The translations under genes and the position numbers were made by a program. A stretch of 43,729 nt of DNA from Modestobacter caceresii (GTDB taxonomy: Bacteria; Actinomycetota; Actinomycetes; Mycobacteriales; Geodermatophilaceae). The stretch's first letter is position 1. Every line of letters starts with the position of its first letter. Under the pieces are notes generated by a model. That model searched no databases, was not told the DNA's origin, and saw only the letters and a program-made list of their open reading frames with translations. This document shows, one piece after another, positions 15,005-19,752 of this stretch. The DNA lies in NCBI RefSeq assembly GCF_000761485.1, contig NZ_JPMX01000091.1, positions 217,129 to 260,857 of the forward strand, read 5' to 3'.

Positions 15005-16102
15005 TCAGCTGGTGCGGTGGGGGTCCTCGCCGGTGGCGGCGCGGGCGCGCTGCTCGTCCTCGGTCAGCGCGCCGGGCCGGCCGGGCTCACCGGTGTCGGT
15101 GACGGCCGGGTCGATCGCGGCACCCTCGGCGTCGGGCACCTCGCCGCGGGTCTTGATCAGGCTGGCCACGGTGGCGACCAGCAGGACCACCAGGATGACC
15201 GTCAGCGACAGCCAGGTCGGGATCGCCGGGATGCTCTCCAGCGGCTCACGCTCGCCGGCGAAGGGGTACTGGTTCTCGTGCAGTGCCTCGAGGATCAGCT
15301 TGACGCCGATGAAGGCCAGGATGACGGCCAGCCCCAGGGACAGGTAGACCAGGCGCTTGAGCAGACCGCCGAGCAGGAAGTACAGCTGACGGAGGCCCAT
15401 CAGCGCGAAGATGTTCGCGGTGAAGACGATGAACGGTTCGCGGGTCAGCCCGAAGATCGCGGGGATGCTGTCCAGCGCGAACAGCAGGTCGGTCGTGCCC
15501 AGTGCCAGGAACACCACGATCATCGGCGTCCACAGCTTCTTGCCGTCCTGGACGACGCGGATCTTGCTGTCGTGGAAGTCCTGGGTCATCGGCAGGACCT
15601 TGCGCATCCGCCGGATCAGGCCGTTCTCCTCGTAGTCCTCGTCCTCCTCGCGGTGCCGGACCAGGTTGATCGCCGTGTAGACGAGGAACGCACCGAAGAG
15701 GAAGAAGACCCAGATGAACCGCTCGATGACGGCGGCGCCGGCGAGGATGAAGAGGCCTCGCAGCACCAGCGCGATGATGATCCCGACCATCAGGACCTCT
15801 TGCTGGAGCTTCCGGGGCACCCGGAAGCGGGCCATGATGATCACGAAGACGAACAGGTTGTCGACCGAGAGCGAGTACTCGGTCAACCAGCCGGCGTAGA
15901 ACTCGGTGGCGAACTGCCCGTTGGTCACCGCCAGCACGATCCCGCCGAAGGCCAGCGCCAGGGCCACGTAGAAGACCACCCACGCCGTCGCCTCCTTGAC
16001 GGAGGGCTCGTGCGGACGACGGACGACGAGGGCGAGGTCGGCGAGCAGCAGGACGGTGAGCCCCACGAACGTCGAGATCTCGAACCAGACGGGGAGCTCC
16101 AC
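15005..16102 (-). CDS. TerC-family integral membrane protein, copy 2 (downstream)
   Basis: The TerC/Alx family protein has 365 residues. About eight or nine helices are evident. The two acidic family motifs are SLSVDNLFVFVIIMARF and TDLLFALDSIPAIFG. A hydrophilic cytosolic loop (RHREEDEDYEEN...MTQDFHDSKIRV) separates the halves, and an acidic, disordered tail of about 50 residues ends the protein. TerC relatives export manganese or supply it to exported enzymes. The GTG at 16102 lies 8 bases after TAGAGT, indicating its own leaderless promoter. It lies 113 bases downstream of its paralogue on the same strand with a hairpin between, so it may be both co-transcribed and separately expressed. 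It lacks the riboswitch leader of its neighbour. Confidence 0.93.
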   Translation of the reverse strand: MELPVWFEISTFVGLTVLLLADLALVVRRPHEPSVKEATAWVVFYVALALAFGGIVLAVTNGQFATEFYAGWLTEYSLSVDNLFVFVIIMARFRVPRKLQQEVLMVGIIIALVLRGLFILAGAAVIERFIWVFFLFGAFLVYTAINLVRHREEDEDYEENGLIRRMRKVLPMTQDFHDSKIRVVQDGKKLWTPMIVVFLALGTTDLLFALDSIPAIFGLTREPFIVFTANIFALMGLRQLYFLLGGLLKRLVYLSLGLAVILAFIGVKLILEALHENQYPFAGEREPLESIPAIPTWLSLTVILVVLLVATVASLIKTRGEVPDAEGAAIDPAVTDTGEPGRPGALTEDEQRARAATGEDPHRTS

Positions 16103-16110
16103 GTACCGGC

Positions 16111-16116
16111 ACTCTA
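16111..16116 (-). promoter_or_regulatory. -10-like TAGAGT for the second TerC gene
   Basis: TAGAGT, 8 bases (GCCGGTAC), then GTG at 16102. Confidence 0.45.
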
Positions 16117-16170
16117 CGGGTTCGTTGCCTCGTGCATCGGTCGACGACCCGTGTCCCCGGCCGCTGTGGC

Positions 16171-16208
16171 GCGGGGCCAGGGGCGACGTTCGTCACCCCC
16201 GGCCCCGC
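16171..16208 (-). terminator. Hairpin between the two TerC genes
   Basis: GCGGGGCC at 16171-16178 pairs with GGCCCCGC at 16201-16208. The interior also pairs in part (GGGG/CCCC, GAC/GTC around GTTC). It starts about 8 bases beyond the upstream TerC stop. There is no T tract. Confidence 0.6.
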
Positions 16209-16215
16209 GCCGCGC

Positions 16216-17340
16216 TCAGTCGGTGCGCGACTCCGGCCGGCTCACCGGCACCTCGCGCGGGTCGGCCGGCGCCTCGGCCGTGTCGGCGCCCGGGTCGCCC
16301 GGTGCGCCGATGTGCCGCCCGGCGCTGTCGGCCCCCGGCTCCCCGGCGCCGCGCTCCGCGCGCCGCTGGGCGTCCTTCTTGTTCTTCCGCAGGCTCGCCC
16401 AGGTGGTCACCAGCAGGGTCACCAGGATGACCAGCAGCGACAGCCAGGTCGGGATCTCCGGGACCAGGGTGACGTGCTCGCCGCCGTTGATGAACGGCAG
16501 CGTGTTCTCGTGCAGCGCGTGGATCAGCAGCTTGATGCCGATGAACCCGAGGATGACCGACAGGCCGTAGGCGAGGTACACGAGCTTGTCGAGCAGTCCG
16601 TCGATGAGGAAGAACAGCTGGCGCAGACCCAGCAGGGCGAACGCGTTCGCGGTGAAGACCAGGTAGGTCTCCTGGGTGAGACCGAAGATCGCCGGGATCG
16701 AGTCGACGGCGAAGAGGATGTCGGCGCTGCCGATGGCGATCAGCGCGATCATCAAGGGGGTGATGAACCGCTTCCCCTTGATCTTCGTGACCAGGCGGTC
16801 GGAGTGGTACTCCTCGGTCGTCGGGAGCACCTTGCGGGTCAGCCGCAGGACCGAGTTCTCCTTGAACTCCTCCTCGTCGTCGTGACCGCCACTGCGGGCC
16901 TGGGCGATCGCGGTCCAGATGAGGAAGCCGCCGAAGATGTAGAAGACCCAGCTGAAGTTCTCGATGGCCGCGGCCCCGAGGAAGATGAAGATCGTCCGCA
17001 GCACGAGCGCGAAGGCGATGCCGAACAGCAGGACCTTCTGCTGCAGCTCACGCGGTACGGCGAAGCTGGCCATGATCAGCACGAAGACGAACAGGTTGTC
17101 GACCGAGAGGCTCTTCTCGGTGACCCAGCCGGCGAAGTACTCACCGGCGTAGGTGCCGCCCCAGAAGACGAGCACCACCAGCCCGAACAGGAGGGCGATG
17201 GCGATGTAGACCGCCGACCAGGTGCCGGATTCCTTCAGGGTCGGCGCGTGCGGCGTGCGCACGTGGCCGAAGAAGTCGAAGACGAGCATCCCGATGATCG
17301 CAGCCACCGTGATGCCCCACACCCACAGGGGGACGTCCAT
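16216..17340 (-). CDS. TerC-family membrane protein, copy 1, under manganese riboswitch
   Basis: The TerC/Alx/YkoY-like protein has 374 residues. The N-terminus is a helix (VWGITVAAIIGMLVFDFF). Acidic transport motifs are SLSVDNLFVFVLIMASF and ADILFAVDSIPAIFG, the central loop is acidic (GGHDDEEEFKEN), and the tail is long, charged and disordered. Manganese efflux, or supply to exported enzymes, is known for this family and is supported here by a yybP-ykoY type leader. The ATG at 17340 has a strong Shine-Dalgarno, GGAGGAAA, unlike the leaderless genes around it, which fits translational control. It is downstream of uvrB on the same strand. It is paralogous to the next gene, with much the same order of motifs; their tails differ. 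Confidence 0.95.
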   Translation of the reverse strand: MDVPLWVWGITVAAIIGMLVFDFFGHVRTPHAPTLKESGTWSAVYIAIALLFGLVVLVFWGGTYAGEYFAGWVTEKSLSVDNLFVFVLIMASFAVPRELQQKVLLFGIAFALVLRTIFIFLGAAAIENFSWVFYIFGGFLIWTAIAQARSGGHDDEEEFKENSVLRLTRKVLPTTEEYHSDRLVTKIKGKRFITPLMIALIAIGSADILFAVDSIPAIFGLTQETYLVFTANAFALLGLRQLFFLIDGLLDKLVYLAYGLSVILGFIGIKLLIHALHENTLPFINGGEHVTLVPEIPTWLSLLVILVTLLVTTWASLRKNKKDAQRRAERGAGEPGADSAGRHIGAPGDPGADTAEAPADPREVPVSRPESRTD

Positions 17341-17372
17341 GCATTTCCTCCGGTCGTCTGGCTCATGTCAGC

Positions 17373-17476
17373 ACCGGAGGTCTCTCCCACCGACCCGCCA
17401 GGCGGGTCGGCCGGCAGCGCCGGGGACCGTGGGATCCCGTGTTGACGACACTGCCGCGGGCGGGATACTCCCCTCC
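17373..17476 (-). promoter_or_regulatory. Manganese riboswitch, yybP-ykoY class, upstream of TerC
   Basis: Read on the minus strand, GGAGG (17476-17472) opens a stem closed by CCTCC (17380-17376). Inside are the segments GGGGAGTA (17473-17466) and TGTCGTCAACAC (17450-17439), which I recall as the yybP-ykoY core. A helix GGCAG/CTGCC also forms, as does a 10-bp-arm hairpin at 17410-17390. CCTCCGGT (17380-17373) is the exact complement of ACCGGAGG (17354-17347), which contains the TerC Shine-Dalgarno. CCTCC can therefore either close the aptamer or mask the ribosome site, a translational ON switch for Mn2+. yybP-ykoY leaders are known to control TerC/Alx/YkoY genes. The identification is from memory of the consensus; a covariance search would settle it. 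Confidence 0.78.
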
Positions 17477-17566
17477 ACGTGGGGCCTGCCCGGTCCGGCG
17501 CGGCAACGCACCGACCCCGGCGGTCCAGGTCCCAGGGTCCCCTACGAACGACCGCCCCGCAGAGTT

Positions 17567-17612
17567 CCCGCGGACGGCGATGACCTGTGCCCGCGGACGG
17601 CGAGGACTTGGG
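17567..17612. repeat. 23-bp tandem duplication after uvrB
   Basis: Two adjacent 23-bp units (17567-17589 and 17590-17612), both starting CCCGCGGACGGCGA, match at 20 of 23 positions. They sit just past the uvrB stop, upstream of the TerC leader. Confidence 0.8.
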
Positions 17613-17619
17613 CACCGGC

Positions 17620-19752
<2,133 letters not shown>

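Follow-up and report, generated by a model that had tools for sequence, protein, structure and literature searches.

We asked whether the leader of a TerC gene in Modestobacter caceresii senses manganese and, in doing so, uncovers its own ribosome site. The gene lies in a stretch of 43,729 nucleotides (hereafter the window), where its open reading frame encodes 374 amino acids on the minus strand at 16216..17340 (Pfam TerC, E = 3.4e-50). It starts with ATG at 17340-17338, and the closest named protein relative found is that of Modestobacter sp. VKM Ac-2982 (97% identical). A first-pass annotation had proposed that the leader is a yybP-ykoY aptamer whose closing strand can alternatively mask the Shine-Dalgarno (SD) sequence of TerC. 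On the evidence described below, we consider it very probable that the TerC leader is a riboswitch of the yybP-ykoY class that responds to Mn2+ by turning translation on.

Another TerC gene lies in tandem at 15005-16102 on the minus strand (Pfam TerC, E = 8.3e-49) and has no such leader in the window; a -10-like TAGAGT stands 8 bases ahead of its GTG, as expected of a leaderless start. A scan of the minus strand of 16050-17650 for the E. coli-type consensus detected no sigma-70-like promoter ahead of the leader of the first gene.

The TerC leader reads as a yybP-ykoY aptamer

On the minus strand, positions 17479-17373 fold as a complete yybP-ykoY (Mn2+) aptamer, the first base of which lies 139 bases from the ATG of TerC. 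Direct reading confirmed that all the class motifs claimed for the leader are present. The aptamer is closed, as annotated, by GGAGG/CCTCC: the 5' strand of P1.1 (GGAGG, 17472..17476), a near-copy of the SD core, pairs with CCTCC at 17380-17376, and the P1.1 pairs covary. The class has GGGGAGUA in L1 with GAGA opposite, and both were found here; loop L1 reads GGGGAGTA at 17466..17473 and GAGA occupies 17384-17381. In an alignment of 93 leaders (A3, described below), GGGAGTA is present in 93/93 and the G that precedes it in 89.

The sequence TGTCGTCAACAC at 17439..17450 covers the end of P3.1 and loop L3. Within it, TCA at 17445-17443 is followed by ACAC, and the adenosine at 17443 (A in 92/93 leaders, gap in one) corresponds by its letters to A41 of L. 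lactis and A48 of X. oryzae, the N7 of which contacts Mn2+; the L. lactis letters are UCA41AUUC (excerpt of PMC6754395). The fold predicted by RNAalifold is a three-way junction without P2, in which five helices covary. The P1.1, P1.2 and P3 helices of the class are therefore present in one of its two junction forms; four-way junctions are described in PMC6754395, and a three-way junction is termed canonical yybP-ykoY in PMC9495176. The 200-nt leader folded with z = -2.68 (2/200 shuffles as good), and its best fold already included the CCTCCGGT/ACCGGAGG hairpin that is discussed below.

The Rfam model is insensitive to these leaders

A search with the Rfam model RF00080, whose failure the first-pass annotation had named as evidence against its reading, gave no match at the gathering cut-off of 45 bits anywhere in the window and none at E <= 10 within 17200-17700 (Rfam 15). 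By its own terms, the reading would formally be refuted at this point. A control scan with the same release was conducted on E. coli K-12 (loci L151 and L152). The mntP leader scored 41.6 bits, below 45, and alx was not listed at E <= 1. Both are treated as manganese riboswitches (mntP in the excerpt of PMC11647493; alx in a title cited in that of PMC10550928). Because mntP fell under the cut-off and alx was unlisted, the RF00080 test is insensitive; we dropped it as a deciding test after this control, and the Rfam miss is weak evidence against membership of the yybP-ykoY class.

In larger samples, RF00080 gave 0/394 genomes above the cut-off and six weak matches in the class draw, a lower bound as at most six candidates were scored per genome, and 0 above the cut-off with three weak matches over 59 relatives. 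When 18 actinobacterial loci matched by our own model, R1, were scanned directly, 0/18 reached gathering. Among the genome-search controls, E. coli was one of the genomes with an RF00080 match, and two control genomes, listed without identities, were above the cut-off. In an RF00080 alignment displayed for another locus, the GGGGAGTA part has no base pairs and a hairpin precedes P3 that is absent from the leaders studied here; these two properties of the model may explain the misses. Matches to SSRC10, PyrR210, McaS, P9 and sR14 near the leader (E <= 10) lay far under their cut-offs and were set aside.

Leaders of this form are widespread and covary

The covariance model R1 was built solely from A1, a MAFFT alignment of 35 leaders of relatives. 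These were taken from 37 leaders by reserving L001 for testing and omitting the second leader of L028. The leaders were chosen by GGGGAGTA and GAGACCT(C/T)C, with five GGGGAGTA copies outside leaders skipped, so the conservation of these letters is partly by construction, a caveat to which the window is not itself subject. R1 matched the aptamer at 17373..17479 over all 105 positions (105.1 bits, E = 3.7e-20), a score that is likewise by construction because the leader is in the training set. The alx leader, which did not contribute to R1, was found at full length (36.2 bits, E = 1.3e-6, filters off), and mntP gave a weak match (17.9 bits, E = 0.013, filters off).

An R1 match stood directly upstream of TerC in 80/80 named relatives. 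By name, 42 of these belong to Modestobacter, Blastococcus, Geodermatophilus or Klenkia and 37 to other genera, including Cellulomonas, Oerskovia, Isoptericola and Cellulosimicrobium; the label of the remaining one is unverified. In the class draw, at least 243 of 394 genomes had a match (10 candidates scored per genome); in the phylum draw, at least 40 of 198 did, 26 of them outside the class (20 candidates scored per genome). One of the matches outside the class (G605, 100.3 bits) lies at the end of a small contig and resembles the window's own family, and it may be contamination. Some relatives (L081, L087, L100, L103, L107 and L031) carry a second R1 match further down the same strand; in L031 it is directly ahead of the TerC gene that corresponds to the second one in the window.

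Covariation was assessed in both alignments. In A1, which was not fitted to the model, RNAalifold predicted 32 pairs, 18 of which showed changes on both sides versus 8.7 in shuffles. A3 contains 93 leaders, including the alx row, drawn from 86 chosen sources as a subset of the loci; its fitting to the model is an advantage in this test. On these terms, 28/32 pairs in A3 changed on both sides (shuffle mean, 20.4), and the covariation score was 0.581 versus 0.202 in shuffles and 0.061-0.109 once the partner was slid; 0/500 shuffles reached the score or the pair count. In A3, 96.2% of the cells pair, and one P1.1 pair occurs as GC in 66 leaders, AU in 23, CG in two and GU in one. Letters and covariation together support assignment of the TerC leader to the yybP-ykoY (Mn2+) aptamer class, in what appears to be a form common among actinomycetes.

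The closing strand can pair within the aptamer or with the Shine-Dalgarno

The closing strand of P1.1 extends to the putative switch strand CCTCCGGT at 17373..17380, which is both the P1.1 3' strand (CCTCC, 17380-17376) and a predicted anti-SD. It is the exact complement of ACCGGAGG at 17347..17354, the SD of TerC, i.e., its predicted partner in the OFF form according to sequence, folding and accessibility. All 8 pairs are Watson-Crick, as the first-pass annotation had read them; the gap between the two strands is 18 bases and not the 20 that it gave. The two pairings are mutually exclusive because both use CCTCC 17380-17376, and a P1.1 3' strand common to the aptamer and the expression platform is a trait of the class. 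This exclusivity, which had been claimed for this leader, was supported by cross-genus comparison, as was the claimed direction in which the bound form leaves the SD free.

CCTCC resembles the ribosome's own anti-SD; therefore, part of the pairing to an SD is expected anyway. We compared pairing within and between loci in 92 of the 93 leaders, with the alx row omitted. Even with the letters of the downstream region shuffled, pairing reached 6.23 bases on average, so six-base pairings are uninformative alone and we relied on swapping. Each leader's own closing strand and downstream region paired over a mean of 7.98 bases (n = 92), versus 7.14 when downstream regions were swapped among loci, with 7.36 as the highest of 200 swaps. 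Counting Watson-Crick pairs only, the values were 7.10 for own and 5.81 for swapped regions (highest, 6.16; n = 92). Because swaps keep the SDs, the excess is locus-specific.

The first strand also changed together with the closing strand, and sometimes the ribosome site did so too. All five P1.1 pairs were kept in 65 of the 67 leaders with the closing strand CCTCC and in 23 of the 25 with another closing strand, i.e., the first strand follows. Sixteen leaders have CCTTC as their closing strand: on the ribosome-site side, four of these carry GAAGG (L044, L047, L167 and L175), eight retain GGAG(G) and pair via G-U, and four have GGTCGAGG or GGCCGAGG. In L173 and L190, the three strands read CAAGG, CCTTG and CACAAGG. 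The extension past P1.1 changes in step as well, reading CCTCCAGGC/GCCTGGAGG in L187, CCTCCAGC/GCTGGAGG in L191 and CCTCCGAC/GTCGGAGG in L042. The longest pairing was shorter than six bases in 2/92 leaders (L166 and L180), and the longest match fell elsewhere in L116 and L174. The pairings are thus conserved in orthologous leaders, as shown by covariation, by the swap test and by P1.1 following the closing strand; a lack of such conservation was the other finding that had been named as counting against the switch.

We give almost no credence to the reading that there is no riboswitch and that the motifs are chance features of a G+C-rich leader. The Rfam miss is compatible with it, and a high G+C content makes long pairings common, as the shuffled mean indicates; however, covariation is far above both shuffles and slides, the alx leader is matched by R1, and the pairing exceeds that of swaps in which the SDs are kept.

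Folding is consistent with a translational ON switch

In the window, the computed energy of the SD-masked form was -81.0 kcal/mol versus -74.3 kcal/mol for the aptamer form. We then computed SD accessibility with P1.1 forced in the 88 of 92 leaders whose partner spanned six bases or more and lay within 60. The mean rose from 0.045 to 0.336, in keeping with the earlier proposal; accessibility increased by more than 0.1 in 77/88 leaders, stayed within 0.1 in nine and decreased in two. These values suggest that OFF is the computed default and that ON would have to be paid for by the metal, the docking energy of which is absent from the folding model.

The switch that we propose would act as follows. 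By default, CCTCCGGT would pair with ACCGGAGG and hide the TerC ribosome site, as computed. At high Mn2+, L1 and L3 would dock around the metal and P1.1 (GGAGG/CCTCC) would remain closed, by analogy with the class. With CCTCC occupied in P1.1, the SD would be exposed and TerC made. From its relatives, TerC might then export manganese or provide it to secreted enzymes.

No intrinsic terminator-like site was found between the aptamer and the start, the three in 16050-17650 lying elsewhere, and an intrinsic terminator in the leader was rejected. The aptamer could be real and Mn2+-sensing but act mainly on transcript level, by mRNA decay or Rho-dependent termination, and SD masking would then play a lesser part. 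Rho does act on the mntP riboswitch region of E. coli (excerpt of PMC11647493); however, it is the SD itself with which the switch strand pairs in a conserved and locus-specific manner, and the leader holds no intrinsic terminator-like site. We regard a mainly transcript-level output as improbable compared with the translational switch. Two other leaders, L067 and L068, have a further hairpin that holds AGGAG, with a T-rich stretch separating it from the ATG (the L067 gene is GDT1); perhaps this is a longer cascade, terminator-like or SD-masking.

Genes downstream of the leaders

A TerC homologue lies downstream in 81/93 A3 leaders, alx included, according to tblastn, which was used because choosing the longest open reading frame gives wrong frames in G+C-rich DNA. 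Pfam was run on 79 downstream open reading frames (79/91 proteins entered), some of them in wrong frames, and assigned 60 to TerC, three to GDT1, three to Na_Ca_ex and a few to other families. Placement ahead of manganese-transport genes, a further trait of the class, is thus seen for TerC and GDT1, their transport role being taken from papers.

The genome to which the window belongs has two further manganese riboswitch-like leaders, one before a third TerC gene (L153, contig C52) and one before a GDT1 antiporter gene (L001, C96). Elsewhere, L018 and L030 are short loci in each of which several such leaders, on both strands, surround TerC genes. R1 matches without TerC downstream occur in L033, L034 and L066, and L033 encodes a protein of the sodium/calcium exchanger family.

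An aptamer of the same architecture might sense another divalent ion. According to a review, certain yybP variants can be expected to respond to other divalent ions (excerpt of PMC7266159), and Na_Ca_ex genes stand behind the leader in three of the 79 scanned frames. In contrast, the adenosine conferring Mn2+ specificity is present in 92/93 leaders and TerC and GDT1 dominate the named downstream families; we rate a different ion as slightly less probable still than a transcript-level output, and Mn2+ remains our preferred ligand.

Two lines of published work bear on what TerC would do. In Vibrio parahaemolyticus, the manganese riboswitch precedes mneA and terC; both genes are induced by manganese, and their loss raises cellular manganese (excerpt of PMC13274385). 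TerC proteins load metal into exoenzymes in Bacillus, where meeY is under riboswitch control (excerpt of PMC10550928). By analogy with these relatives, TerC may be a manganese exporter or a manganese supplier, as both roles fit. The switch gives the TerC genes of many actinomycetes a predicted manganese-regulated translational control, and hence a testable manganese role, in organisms where a scan with Rfam 15 sees little or nothing.

Comparison with known manganese riboswitches

Two elements of this picture are already in print: an RF00080 leader of the terC gene of Corynebacterium glutamicum (PMC3890552) and translational yybP-ykoY control of E. coli mntP (PMC11647493). An account of direct P1.1-to-SD exchange in the actinobacterial form was not found in the literature consulted, a weak negative as that literature did not cover the founding 2015 work. 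We slightly favour the broader view that the Mn2+ riboswitches of actinobacteria include a compact subclass that lacks P2 and that Rfam 15 mostly fails to detect, in which aptamer and ribosome site directly exchange a single strand. In this view, the first strand would mimic the SD as a decoy, and the three sequences (decoy, closing strand and SD) would coevolve, in some cases departing from the usual GGAGG. The three-strand covariation offers a clean comparative case for such an exchange.

The TerC leader resembles the Mn2+ aptamers of L. lactis and X. oryzae in its L1 GGGGAGTA, in an L3 with the Mn2+-contacting adenosine, and in a P1.1 switch helix with a 3' half (GAGACC...) competed for by the expression platform (excerpt of PMC6754395). 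Those aptamers have a four-way junction, whereas the TerC leader is predicted to form a three-way junction that lacks P2. According to the same excerpt, P1.1 of the X. oryzae aptamer is stabilised by Mn2+, and the terminator competes by invading the 3' half of this helix; in the TerC leader, the predicted competitor is the SD. The E. coli alx leader belongs to the same class, precedes a TerC-family gene and is matched by R1 at full length, but its stretch from aptamer to start is longer (79 bases versus 32 in the TerC leader). The mntP leader is of the same class but only weakly matched by R1; there, control is described as translational with the RBS hidden without manganese, and Rho acts too (excerpt of PMC11647493). 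Finally, C. glutamicum terC (cg2157) has an RF00080 leader with an observed 5' UTR, scored at 49.13 bits with an earlier Rfam model (excerpt of PMC3890552), and by that description it shares with the leader here its place, as an actinobacterial yybP-ykoY leader before terC.
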